The position numbers were made by a program, and so were the translations under genes. From Bacteroidales bacterium (GTDB lineage: Bacteria; Bacteroidota; Bacteroidia; Bacteroidales; TTA-H9), in NCBI GenBank assembly GCA_030656615.1, contig JAUSOY010000078.1, positions 62,001-126,000 on the forward strand: DNA of 64,000 bases. The letters are read 5' to 3'. Shown in pieces: positions 29,968 to 43,398 of this stretch (positions are counted from its first letter, which is position 1; each line of letters begins with the position of its first letter). Under the pieces are notes generated by a model. It was not told the DNA's origin. It saw nothing but the letters and a program-made list of their open reading frames with translations, and searched no databases.

Positions 29968-31158
29968 ATGAAACTTCTTCAACAGAAACTCGCCAAATAC
30001 GACATACCTCAAAAAACCCAGCAAATGGGTGTTTATCCTTATTTCAGAATTATTGAATCGGAACAGGATACTGAGGTAATCATTGGTGGCAAAAAGGTTT
30101 TAATGTTTGGCTCAAATTCCTATTTAGGTCTCACAAGTCATCCGAAAGTCAAAGCGGCATCAAAAGCTGCAATCGATAAATATGGTTCTGGTTGTGCTGG
30201 TTCTCGCTTCCTAAACGGGACATTGGACATACATATTGAGTTGGAAGATAAACTGGCCGAATTTGTTGGAATGAAAGCTGCTCTGGTTTACAGTGCCGGA
30301 TTTCTTGTAAACCTTGGTGTAATTTCTACAATCACTGGTCGCGAAGATTATATCATTCTTGACGAACTGGTTCATGCCTCAATAATAGAAGGAAGACGTC
30401 TTTCATTCAGTCAGGCATTTAAATACAAGCATAATGATATGGTTTCACTGGAAAAAATTCTTAAACAGTGCAAACCGGATAAAATTAAACTAATTATTGT
30501 TGACGGCATCTTTAGCATGGAAGGAGACATTGCCCGCCTTCCGGAGATCGTTGAACTTGCAAAAAAATATGATGCTACCGTTATGGTTGATGACGCCCAT
30601 GCATTGGGTGTGATTGGCGTAAATGGACGAGGAACTGCCAGTCATTTCGGATTGAATAATGGTGAAGTTGACCTGATAATGGGAACTTTCAGTAAATCAT
30701 TGGCTGCCATTGGTGGTTTTATCGCCAGCGATTTTGAAACCATTAATTATCTGAAACATAATAGCCGATCGCTGATTTTCAGTGCAAGTATAGCACCAGC
30801 AGCTGCAGGTAGTGTTCTTGCTGCTCTGGAGATTATGAAAGAAGAGCCTGAGCGCATTGCCAAGCTTTGGGAAAACACGAATTATGCCATCGAAAATTTC
30901 AGAAGGATGGGTTTTGATTTAGGGAAGACTGAAAGCCCTATCATCCCATTATATATCAGGGAAGATGCCAAAACCTTTATGTTCACTAAGATGCTATTGA
31001 ACGAAGGTGTTTTTGTAAATCCAATTGTTTCTCCAGCTGTTCCAAGCGATTCATCGCTAATACGATTTTCGCTTATGGCAACCCATACTCAAGAACAGAT
31101 TGATCGCGCCCTGGAGGTCTGTTACAAAGTGGCAAAAAAATTGCATATCATCGATTAA
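29968..31158 (+). CDS. spt: alpha-oxoamine synthase, probable serine palmitoyltransferase
   Basis: A 396-residue fold-type I PLP enzyme of the alpha-oxoamine synthase family. Visible are NSYLGL (about 49-54), [13 protein letters not shown] (71-83), [15 protein letters not shown], the VDDAHALGV motif (about 208-216), and the Schiff-base Lys in [11 protein letters not shown] near 240. Family members are serine palmitoyltransferase, 2-amino-3-ketobutyrate CoA ligase and 8-amino-7-oxononanoate synthase. The length and sequence style resemble the Bacteroides serine palmitoyltransferase. There is no threonine dehydrogenase or biotin gene next to it; instead two GNAT-like genes follow. It would condense Ser with a fatty acyl-CoA/ACP to 3-ketosphinganine. 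The symbol is conditional on that. Confidence 0.78.
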
Positions 31159-31170
31159 AACGGAGGGTTT

Positions 31171-32322
31171 ATGTCGGTAATCATTAAAGAAGTTGAATCA
31201 AGGGATGCATTAAAGGCTTTTGTGCGTTTCCCGAATGAATTATACAAAGGAATTCCTCAATATGTGCCTCCCATCGAAAGGGATGAACTTAACATTTTGT
31301 CTGTACAGAAAAACCCGGGTTTAAAAAACTGTCAGGTCAAATATTGGTTGGCTTATAAAGATGGGAAAATTGCCGGGCGAATGGCAGGAATCATTAATAA
31401 CGAATTTATCGAAAAATGGGCCAAACGTTATGCTCGTTTTGGATGGGTAGACTTTATCGATGATGAGGATGTTTCAAGGATATTATTTGAAACGGCAGAG
31501 AAATGGGCCATCAGTAATGGAATGGATGCCATCAACGGACCACTCGGATTTACGGATTTCGATCCGGAAGGAATTATGATTGAGGGTTTTGACGAATTGG
31601 CGACCATAATAGAACGATATAACCATCCGTATTATGCCACTCATATTGAAAAAATGGGTTATAAAAAGGATGCCGATTGGTTCGAATATCAACTAAATAT
31701 ACCCGCTGCCCTACCCGAAAATATTAAACGAGTTTCGAAGTATGTCTTAAAAAAACACAAGCTACGTGTTGTCCGTATTAAAAAACTGACAGAAATCGAA
31801 AAGTTTGCCGACGGTGTATTTAAGCTACTAAATGATTTATACGGACTTATGTATGGGTTCGTACCCATCACACCGGAACTTAAGAATTTCTATATCCGCA
31901 AGTACCTCCCGCTAATCGACCCCAAGCTCATGGCTTTCATTGTGGATGAAAAAGACACTTTAGTTGCATTTGGTGTTACCATGCCGTCTTATTCAGAACT
32001 CTTTAAGCAGGCCAAAGGAAGCTGGTTAAGGCTTCTGTGGTTGAAATTTACAGGGCAGGCCGTAAAAACCGATACCGTTGATATGTACTTCATTGGTGTG
32101 CTTCCTGAATATATAAATCATGGATTAAGCTCTGTACTAATTAATACGGTGGGACAGACTTTAATTGATTTAGGATATAAAAAAGCAGAAACAAATATTG
32201 AATTCGAAAGCAATGAAGCGGTTCAAAGCTTATGGAAGCATTTCGACTATAGGCAACACAAACGAAGGCGCTGTTACCTTAAATCGTTCATCAGTAGTTC
32301 CAGAACCGAAGACAATATTTAA
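31171..32322 (+). CDS. GNAT-like acyltransferase, candidate ceramide N-acyltransferase (copy 1)
   Basis: This 383-residue protein and its 373-residue neighbour share a conserved core: WLAYKDGK, AGR(M/I)AGIIN, ARFGW(V/I)DFIDDE, NGM...GPLGF, a DE-rich loop, YNH...Y, and a C-terminal IxNTVGQTLIDLGYKKAE-like strand-helix resembling the GNAT acetyl-CoA region. I infer a GNAT fold of two domains. It starts 12 bases after the sphingolipid enzyme gene. GNAT-type proteins act as ceramide synthase in Caulobacter, so N-acylation of the long-chain base is the best hypothesis. A generic function cannot be excluded. Confidence 0.62.
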   Translation: MSVIIKEVESRDALKAFVRFPNELYKGIPQYVPPIERDELNILSVQKNPGLKNCQVKYWLAYKDGKIAGRMAGIINNEFIEKWAKRYARFGWVDFIDDEDVSRILFETAEKWAISNGMDAINGPLGFTDFDPEGIMIEGFDELATIIERYNHPYYATHIEKMGYKKDADWFEYQLNIPAALPENIKRVSKYVLKKHKLRVVRIKKLTEIEKFADGVFKLLNDLYGLMYGFVPITPELKNFYIRKYLPLIDPKLMAFIVDEKDTLVAFGVTMPSYSELFKQAKGSWLRLLWLKFTGQAVKTDTVDMYFIGVLPEYINHGLSSVLINTVGQTLIDLGYKKAETNIEFESNEAVQSLWKHFDYRQHKRRRCYLKSFISSSRTEDNI

Positions 32323-42047: not shown

Positions 42048-42081
42048 TAAACAGTCATTCATCTTATAAATAATCAACTGT

Positions 42082-43398
42082 ATGCATACAACAGTTAAAA
42101 AACCTGAAGGAAAACTTGGAGTACTTCTTGTAGGCATGAGTGGAGCCGTATCCACTACTTTTCTGGCTGGTACACTGGCCGTTCGTAAAGGCGTTGGTTT
42201 ACCTATCGGTTCACTGACCCAAATGGGTACCATCAGACTTGGTAAACGCGCTGATAACAATTTCCCTAAAATCAAAGACTTTGTTCCACTGTACGATCTT
42301 AAGAATTTAATTTTTGGTGGTTGGGATATACGTGATGAAAACTCATATGAATCTGCAAAAATTGCAGAAGTTTTAAAGGACAAGGATTTGGATCTGGTCA
42401 AAGACGAACTCGAACAACTTCGTCCGTTTAAAGCAGTTTTTGATAAAAAATACGTAGCCCGTCTTGATGGTACTTATGTTAAATCTGACACGACTAAGGC
42501 CGGTCTGATGGAGCAGGTTCGCGAAGATATCCGCAACTTCAGAAAGGATAACAATCTGGCAGATATTATCACGATTTGGTGTGGAAGCACAGAAACCTAC
42601 CTGAAAGCATCTGAAGTTCACGATACCATAGAAAGCTTTGAAGAAGGTATGAAAAATAACCATCCCGACATTTCACCCAGTATGCTATATGCTTGGGCTT
42701 GTCTGATGGAAAATGTACCCTACTTCAATGGTGCACCTAACCTAACATTGGATATTAAAGCTGTTCAGCAGCTTGCATTGAAGAATGGTATTCCCATTGC
42801 TGGAAAAGATTTCAAAACTGGACAAACCATGGTAAAAACCGTTATTGCCCCTATGCTAAAAACTCGTATGCTCGGGCTCGATGGCTGGTTTTCGACCAAT
42901 ATTCTTGGGAATCGTGATGGTGAAGTACTCGACGATCCGGGTTCTTTTAAAACAAAAGAAGAAAGCAAACTTTCTGTTATTGACAGCATTCTTCAGCCCG
43001 AATTGTATCCTGAACTTTATGGTAATGTATATCATAAGGTTAGAATAAATTATTACCCTCCCCGTAAGGATAATAAAGAAGGCTGGGATAATATTGACTT
43101 ATTTGGCTGGTTGGGTTACCCCATGCAGCTAAAGATCGATTTCCTATGCCGCGATTCCATTTTAGCTGCCCCACTCGTACTCGATTTAGTACTTTTAGGT
43201 AATCTTAGCCAGCGTGTTGGATTCTCCGGGATACAGGAATGGTTATCGTTCTATTTCAAAAGCCCGCAACATTCGGAAGGCATTGTTCCTGAACATGATC
43301 TGTTTATTCAGAACATCAAAATGAAAAATACCCTTCGCGAAATCATGAACGAAGAACCGATAACCCATCTTGACGACAAAATCACTCTCTTCAAATAA
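42082..43398 (+). CDS. myo-inositol-1-phosphate synthase (inositol-3-phosphate synthase)
   Basis: A 438-residue enzyme that converts glucose-6-phosphate to 1D-myo-inositol-3-phosphate using NAD. The N-terminal dinucleotide loop is LLVGMSGAVSTTF. The active-site block NGIPIAGKDFKTGQTMVKTVIAPML near 233-257 and the family landmark STNILGNRDGEVL near 272-284 (NxLGNxDGxxL) are clear, followed by SK and KIDFLCRDS motifs. This enzyme sets the committed step for inositol, and its presence strongly supports an inositol-containing lipid or solute. It is the last gene of the operon and is followed by a strong terminator. Confidence 0.92.
   Translation: MHTTVKKPEGKLGVLLVGMSGAVSTTFLAGTLAVRKGVGLPIGSLTQMGTIRLGKRADNNFPKIKDFVPLYDLKNLIFGGWDIRDENSYESAKIAEVLKDKDLDLVKDELEQLRPFKAVFDKKYVARLDGTYVKSDTTKAGLMEQVREDIRNFRKDNNLADIITIWCGSTETYLKASEVHDTIESFEEGMKNNHPDISPSMLYAWACLMENVPYFNGAPNLTLDIKAVQQLALKNGIPIAGKDFKTGQTMVKTVIAPMLKTRMLGLDGWFSTNILGNRDGEVLDDPGSFKTKEESKLSVIDSILQPELYPELYGNVYHKVRINYYPPRKDNKEGWDNIDLFGWLGYPMQLKIDFLCRDSILAAPLVLDLVLLGNLSQRVGFSGIQEWLSFYFKSPQHSEGIVPEHDLFIQNIKMKNTLREIMNEEPITHLDDKITLFK

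Follow-up and report, generated by a model that had tools for sequence, protein, structure and literature searches.

How a bacterium places phosphorylated head groups on its sphingolipids is the question raised by a run of 14 genes at positions 29968-43398 of a 64,000-nucleotide stretch of a Bacteroidales genome (lineage TTA-H9; assembly GCA_030656615.1, contig JAUSOY010000078.1, positions 62,001 to 126,000 of the forward strand), the whole of which is referred to here as the window. On balance, we favor the answer that the cluster makes ceramide and equips it with two phospho head groups, both drawn from alcohols activated with cytidine diphosphate (CDP). Serine palmitoyltransferase (SPT) and two GNAT-like acyltransferases would build the ceramide. 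In branch A (37169-43398), myo-inositol-phosphate synthase (MIPS) would provide inositol phosphate, the nucleotidyltransferase NTP2 would convert it to CDP-inositol, and the phosphatidyltransferase PT2, together with a HAD hydrolase, would carry the group to lipid. In branch B (33666-37134), which would run from AT through NTP1 to PT1, the pyridoxal phosphate (PLP) enzyme AT would act on some common phosphorylated metabolite, the likeliest reaction being decarboxylation of phospho-L-serine to phosphoethanolamine; the cytidylyltransferase NTP1 would turn the amino-alcohol phosphate into a CDP-amino alcohol, with CDP-ethanolamine as the best guess; and PT1 would hand the phospho-amino alcohol on to a lipid acceptor, for which ceramide is the most likely choice. 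The inositol half is already known, as a prediction, and the new content lies at 33666-36306. Branch B consists of the following genes:

33666-34715, plus strand: AT, a HisC/CobD-like PLP enzyme (Aminotran_1_2; TIGR01141, 229.2 bits, below the cut-off of 276.55)
34715-35575, plus strand: PT1, a CDP-alcohol phosphotransferase (PF01066, 7.4e-14)
35572-36306, plus strand: NTP1, a LicC/PntC-like cytidylyltransferase (NTP_transferase; best Protein Data Bank [PDB] matches LicC 1jyk and PntC 6pd1)
36316-37134, plus strand: a LysE-type membrane protein (PF01810, 4.4e-16)

The most likely start of NTP1 is the ATG at 35572, which shares the sequence ATGA with the stop of PT1. The original prediction, made from the window alone, had seen at 33666-37134 a separate CDP-activated amino-alcohol branch, which our comparisons support, and had been unable to assign it to a pathway. 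It can now be placed: AT and NTP1 are a widespread, conserved donor pair that is combined with several transferase families. A search of a genome collection, started from a four-sequence AT alignment (A1), and two AT peptides led to 80 loci, the best 80 of 214 relatives and so a non-random sample, each with a surrounding stretch that is short in some cases and about 21 kb at the longest. NTP1 adjoins AT in 75 of these loci, and NTP1 or PT1 does so in 79. The gap from AT to the next module gene has a median of -4 nt (68 measured) and is 20 nt or less in 66 of 68. What varies is the final enzyme. PT1 accompanies NTP1 in 39 loci and stands alone in 4 (two near contig ends); NTP1 is joined by a TagF-like enzyme in 18, by LicD in 15, and by another, divergent CDP-alcohol enzyme in 2; and one locus with NTP1 alone and one with none of these both lie near contig ends. 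The transferase names were confirmed with Pfam on 2 examples for LicD (PF04991) and 3 for the TagF-like type (PF04464).

Final enzymes of the PT1, LicD, and TagF types use CDP-activated alcohols. As the donor is thus of one kind, AT and NTP1 most likely make it, and the pair probably supplies a single CDP-amino alcohol. The AT tree bears on this point, with the LicD and TagF types and two unlabelled rows forming one clade of 34 (support 99). Within it, closely related ATs differ in their transferase (L127 with TagF versus L130 with LicD), and the tree requires 7 changes of the LicD label, of which starred branches force 5, and 9 of the TagF label, of which they force 6, mostly within that one clade and with the two unlabelled rows treated as a group. 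This repeated interchange among near relatives suggests that LicD and TagF probably use one donor. The AT of the window falls outside this clade, in a 19-row PT1 clade (support 97).

The branch also exists apart from inositol genes, a check that the original prediction had proposed: AT-PT1-NTP1 occurs in G208 without them, downstream of a short-chain reductase gene, and no MIPS lies within the available stretch in 36 of the 39 PT1-NTP1 loci. Records that carry the pair are titled Bacteroidota, Ignavibacteriota, and Calditrichota, with single records of other groups. One contig titled Methanoregulaceae archaeon (L069) has the module too; its AT lies very near that of the Bacteroidales locus L068 in the tree, and a binning error is probable. 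A class-wide search for AT at E 1e-40, a strict threshold applied to an even draw, found it in the window's own genome only (1 of 197), and a plasmid collection yielded one chromosome-sized Prevotella record with an unannotated 39% AT match and two records at about 27%. Of the 39 PT1-NTP1 loci, 19 have a LysE gene near AT, on either side of it, either after NTP1 or before AT (36316-37134 in the window; L078, L085-L088, and L090); a gene found on either side of the branch is probably tied to it in function. In Bacteroides xylanisolvens XB1A (L120:10001-12608), AT-NTP1-LicD stands among genes whose sequences read as glycosyltransferase-like, kinase-like, and heptosyltransferase-like, and it may be a counterpart of the unexplained tailoring genes in the lipooligosaccharide (LOS) cluster of B. 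thetaiotaomicron.

Is the donor an amino alcohol? The best matches of NTP1 among solved structures are LicC (1jyk, 4.4e-29) and PntC (6pd1, 2.8e-28), followed at a distance by 4jd0 (1e-13), which the available text of PMC12275187 names an inositol-1-phosphate cytidylyltransferase. In PntC, according to the available text of PMC6697681, Glu104 and Glu196 are positioned to bind the amine of 2-aminoethylphosphonate (AEP), and LicC has D105 and D192 there. D113 and E206 of NTP1 (numbered from 35557) match those positions, a correspondence read by eye from HMMER alignments, and are invariant in 31 of 31 sequences. NTP1 thus resembles LicC and PntC both in its nearest solved structures and in having acids at the two amine-binding positions; with those acids it looks made for an amine, and it is predicted to be a cytidylyltransferase for an amino-alcohol phosphate. 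A phosphonate substrate was considered and rejected, as phosphoenolpyruvate (PEP) mutase was found over the TIGR02320 cut-off in none of 18 genomes (weak matches of 70.3 bits in G351 and 20.2 bits in G000). It counts against our reading that the same search found none over the cut-off in 14 control genomes, leaving its sensitivity undemonstrated.

Which lipid receives the head group is a question for PT1. The complete DxxDGxxAR..GxxxDxxxD motif is present in 29 of 29 PT1 sequences. The PT1 model, with a predicted local distance difference test (pLDDT) score of 91.7, ranks closest in fold to AF2299 (Z 21.1) and IPCT-DIPPS (Z 18.7), then to phosphatidylinositol-phosphate (PIP) synthases, and then to choline/ethanolamine phosphotransferases. 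In the window, PT1 and its partners follow three genes for sphingolipid synthesis:

29968-31158, plus strand: SPT, the sphingolipid entry enzyme (NF047600 SerpalmtaseCFB, 682.9 bits, cut-off 640)
31171-32322, plus strand: GNAT-like acyltransferase 1, with a probable role in ceramide N-acylation (PF00583, 8.5e-7)
32421-33542, plus strand: GNAT-like acyltransferase 2 (PF00583, 6e-7)

Ceramide is the likelier acceptor, judging from the co-occurrence of SPT. An SPT-like gene is present in 29 of 32 PT1-type genomes (10/12 and 19/20 in the two genome sets) versus 6 of 19 LicD/TagF-type genomes (3/6 and 3/13), a difference with a Fisher p of 2e-5. The search covered 32 of 44 PT1-type places (43 loci and the window) and 19 of 33 LicD/TagF loci, with L109 left out. 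To count, a match had to reach E 1e-120, which came to 421 bits or more; this threshold was set in the second genome set and then applied to the first, which had been run at 1e-60. One genome, G343, has a split SPT (pieces of 363 and 283 bits) and was scored as lacking it; scored as a carrier, it changes the LicD/TagF count to 7/19 and p to 8e-5. A GNAT of the window type lies near the SPT-like gene in 14 of 20 stretches from PT1-type genomes: 2 of 7 Bacteroidota stretches with SPT over the cut-off, and 12 of the 13 with a lower-scoring gene (12 titled Ignavibacteriota or Calditrichota, one Bacteroidetes), where the single miss is at a contig end. An epimerase-like reductase is likewise present in 12 of these 13, the miss (L203) not being at a contig end and the copy in L207 lying about 2 kb away. 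A relative of GNAT-like acyltransferase 2 also adjoins SPT in G208 (49% identity, L211), and for the lower-scoring genes NF047600 still comes out as best model of the two examined. The combination of SPT-like gene, GNAT, and epimerase-like reductase looks like a ceramide locus, in which we take the last two to be the ceramide synthase and reductase. A review gives names for synthase and reductase enzymes (PMC10191378, available text). The window and 5 of 43 PT1-type loci (L054-L057 and L059) have module and SPT within one stretch. In L059, a PAP2_C (PF14360) gene at 8403-9071 lies between SPT/GNAT and a divergent AT-PT1-NTP1-LysE module; PF14360 is a family that includes sphingomyelin synthases.

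Several points weigh against ceramide. The Fisher value ignores relatedness; the threshold is unspecific, admitting a gene of the Bacillus subtilis control; the SPT-like matches of Ignavibacteriota and Calditrichota reach 421-527 bits, under the curated 640; three PT1-type genomes (G353, G354, and G363) have no SPT-like match at the threshold; and 38 of 43 PT1-type loci have no SPT in the available stretch. Ethanolamine lipids also have another route, since ordinary phosphatidylethanolamine is probably made in the genome of the window through a PssA-like enzyme (94.9 bits against a cut-off of 107) and Psd, of which it has two genes. A competing reading is that PT1 uses diacylglycerol, in a second, Kennedy-like phospholipid route to which the nearness of SPT is incidental. 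The three genomes without SPT, the few loci with SPT in reach, and the B. subtilis match all lean its way. It has to contend with the skew of SPT toward PT1-type over glycan-type genomes, with the recurrent GNAT and reductase beside the lower-scoring SPT-like genes, and with Psd, which already gives ordinary phosphatidylethanolamine; we consider it somewhat unlikely. A role of branch B as the sole source of phosphatidylethanolamine was rejected, as Psd was found in 35 of 36 genome handles, that is, in 34 of 35 distinct genomes (G328 and G357 being the same), with G355 the only one lacking it.

The reaction of AT is the step on which the identity of the head group depends. We aligned 77 AT rows, one from the window and the others from the 76 loci (of 80) with open reading frames (ORFs) of 320-375 aa, with 13 rows of HisC and 4 of CobD. 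Two truncated HisC ORFs, L138 and L146, were aligned but excluded from the tree. The PLP residues are retained across the AT rows. On the substrate side, an Arg of 12 of 13 HisC and 4 of 4 CobD rows is replaced by Lys (K311) in 77 of 77 AT rows, and all 77 have YLG at a place where PYN is usual in HisC. In the tree, which came from a short search without SMUL_1544 and warns of long HisC and CobD branches, AT rows separate from HisC and CobD rows with a support of 100. AT as CobD proper was rejected, its 122.1 bits to TIGR01140 falling short of the cut-off of 290.55.

Our best guess is that AT is a phosphoserine decarboxylase resembling SMUL_1544 (6oux). The AT profile A2 ranks this protein fifth among PDB matches, at 141.6 bits, ahead of 1fg3 (114.6), which we take to be Escherichia coli HisC, and of the CobD proteins of Porphyromonas gingivalis (98.2) and Salmonella (86.9). 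The guess follows from this profile similarity and from the suggestion, in the part of the source available, that SMUL_1544 "might" make ethanolamine phosphate. On the other side, HisC-annotated structures from a plant, Listeria, and Campylobacter outscore SMUL_1544 in the same profile search; the fold comparison places it 29th (Z 33.0, against 38.4 for the top match); it keeps Arg in the alignment where the AT family has Lys; and the conservation of SWWYYK and LGYGGEDI is biased, the loci having been fetched with two AT peptides, SWWYYK among them, all of which tells against our assignment. The AT fold search fails to separate HisC from decarboxylases.

The product could instead be another amino alcohol, if AT decarboxylates threonine phosphate to 1-amino-2-propanol phosphate or transaminates a triose phosphate to a serinol-type phosphate. 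K311 and YLG, in setting AT apart from HisC and CobD, speak for a substrate of its own, and Psd, in providing an ethanolamine lipid in any case in nearly all the genomes, leaves room for a different group. Against this, the 45 largest clusters listed from the loci, only some of which were identified, revealed no other biosynthetic gene as a regular companion of the pair, and this favors a common metabolite such as phosphoserine, although triose phosphates are common metabolites too. We regard a different amino alcohol as unlikely. That AT is the genome's ordinary histidinol-phosphate aminotransferase, the histidine-pathway explanation that the original prediction had foreseen, is very improbable and was rejected, for although TIGR01141 is the best NCBIfam model of AT and AT the best such match in the genome, it stays below the cut-off, no hisD match was found in this genome (96.84% complete) against 13 of 14 control genomes, the AT copies of all 18 carrier genomes fall under the HisC cut-off while 12 of the 18 also have a true HisC over it, and the residue changes and the tree set AT apart. 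Neither the AT-NTP1 pair nor a bacterial CDP-ethanolamine made from phosphoserine was found described in the open-licence PMC literature, which is not proof of absence.

The remaining genes of the cluster belong, the TetR gene apart, to the inositol half:

37169-37864, plus strand: NTP2, the nucleotidyltransferase of the inositol cluster, proposed to act as CTP:inositol-phosphate enzyme (NTP_transferase; PDB 8x7s 3.3e-12, 4jd0 3.1e-11)
37926-38525, plus strand: a TetR regulator within the cluster (PF00440, 8.2e-14; in the same place in G328 and G216)
38558-39388, plus strand: a RimK-like ATP-grasp protein (weak RimK/MptN NCBIfam matches only; no Pfam match)
39391-40296, plus strand: PT2, the CDP-alcohol phosphatidyltransferase of the inositol cluster (PF01066, 1.8e-13)
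40311-41327, plus strand: an LPG_synthase_TM/flippase-like protein (PF03706, 3.1e-32)
41328-42047, plus strand: the HAD hydrolase of the inositol cluster (PF00702, 1.3e-21; adjoins PT2 or MIPS elsewhere)
42082-43398, plus strand: MIPS (PF07994, 2e-103; PF01658, 9.8e-33)

All 14 plus-strand ORFs were found where the original prediction had placed them, with Pfam or NCBIfam matches to the families it had named, and its union of a sphingolipid entry gene with inositol-lipid genes holds, NF047600 being over its cut-off and the inositol set present. Intergenic gaps across the cluster are -4 to 123 bp, so that one or a few transcription units are likely. The gene sets also occur together elsewhere. 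The 14-gene order recurs in G328 (GWE2_42_24) and G216 (MS_R2_22), both from the family to which the window belongs, with the same flanks as in the window (a low-molecular-weight [LMW] phosphatase, PALP, and a methyltransferase upstream; DUF5686 downstream); it is kept in L056 and, until the contig ends within LysE, in L054. Such repetition argues that the arrangement is not due to chance.

On its gene content, the stretch from 37169 to 43398 without TetR is a putative cluster of the alternative, CDP-inositol type, published but unproven. The available text of PMC9246714 proposes such a cluster for B. vulgatus and Prevotella, with CDP-inositol suggested, and the window shares with it, at the level of gene families, the co-located NTP transferase, CDP-alcohol phosphatidyltransferase, HAD, and MIPS genes. 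The lysylphosphatidylglycerol-synthase-like and carboxypeptidase-regulatory-like neighbors noted in that text are present here too; unlike the cluster it describes, the window adds SPT, the GNATs, and a second CDP-alcohol branch. The original prediction had compared this half with an inositol-lipid cluster known in Bacteroides; it is not of the B. thetaiotaomicron type. The prediction was right that 39391-43398 holds inositol-lipid genes and too narrow in its start: NTP2 and the ATP-grasp gene go with the inositol genes, and the half begins at 37169. Nine other stretches of the same taxonomic order with a PT2-like match (L045-L053) bear this out. In seven (L045, L046, L047, L048, L051, L052, and L053), NTP2, ATP-grasp, PT2, and HAD occur together without AT-PT1-NTP1, and MIPS is present in six of these (on the opposite strand in L048) and a flippase-like gene in two. 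The other two (L049 and L050) have PT2 alone or PT2 and the flippase-like gene, NTP2, ATP-grasp, HAD, and MIPS not being in the available stretch. The ATP-grasp protein is a recurrent member of the alternative cluster, its gene sitting between NTP2 and PT2 in 7 of the 9. An annotated cluster of the same genes in B. finegoldii adjoins DUF5686, with MIPS at the opposite end and a hypothetical protein in the ATP-grasp place; the term "ATP-grasp" gives no hits in the available main text of PMC9246714. L047 (3509-7850), which comes from a different genome of that order, has two further genes beside the MIPS of its alternative cluster: a GNAT at 42% identity and, at 38%, an SPT/BioF-like gene. A further PT2-like locus, H1, with a cytidyltransferase, a short-chain reductase (SDR), and an acyltransferase, was not used.

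The two branches differ in their enzymes. NTP2 has Thr at the first amine-binding position in 10 of 10 sequences, the second position being one that could not be aligned, and unlike NTP1 it does not look built for an amine substrate. PT2, named from its Pfam match and gene context, does not carry the complete motif found in PT1: Gly takes the place of the last Asp in 12 of 12 sequences and also in B. finegoldii, and the family (window 39391-40296; L197:4980-5885) has Asp or Asn one residue after this Gly. Its catalysis may depart from the textbook CDP-alcohol scheme.

We propose that branch B works as a CDP-alcohol pathway of the Kennedy or Lic type, with a PLP enzyme as the source of the head group. 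The eukaryotic Kennedy CDP-ethanolamine pathway comprises a phospho-alcohol, a cytidylyltransferase, and a CDP-alcohol phosphotransferase, and structures to which the PT1 model can be aligned include CEPT1 and cholinephosphotransferases (Z 10.4-12.7). Unlike in that pathway, a PLP enzyme would replace ethanolamine kinase, and PT1 is nearer to AF2299 and IPCT-DIPPS. The likeness to the Lic phosphocholine pathway (LicC and LicD) lies in NTP1 and in the LicD that follows the pair in its 15 loci. PntC of Treponema denticola is fused to a PLP aminotransferase (PMC6697681, available text), which recalls the pairing of AT with NTP1; the Pnt pathway differs in that its aminotransferase is of class V, where AT is HisC/CobD-like, and in the PEP mutase not found over the cut-off here. 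For the ceramide diphosphoglycerate of Caulobacter, the available text of PMC12275187 hypothesizes a CDP donor for a sphingolipid head group and describes a cytidylyltransferase of the same superfamily, CpgD; this enzyme makes CDP-glycerate, and that text describes neither a PLP enzyme nor a CDP-alcohol phosphatidyltransferase. More tentatively, and with slightly more doubt than belief, we suggest that the pair is the core of a kinase-free relative of the Kennedy pathway, in which a HisC/CobD-like AT acting on phosphoserine and a LicC-like enzyme would supply the donor and different lineages would plug in PT1, LicD, or a TagF-like enzyme to decorate ceramide or surface glycans.

According to the available text of a review (PMC10191378), every Bacteroides species tested makes phosphoethanolamine-dihydroceramide, and no explanation of a bacterial route by which phosphoethanolamine is placed onto ceramide was found in the literature consulted, as far as its text was available. 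The locus described here offers a concrete three-gene candidate route for ceramide phosphoethanolamine in another lineage. With the donor pair also present in a glycosyltransferase-type locus of B. xylanisolvens, the activity of AT could bear on the sphingolipid and LOS questions together.

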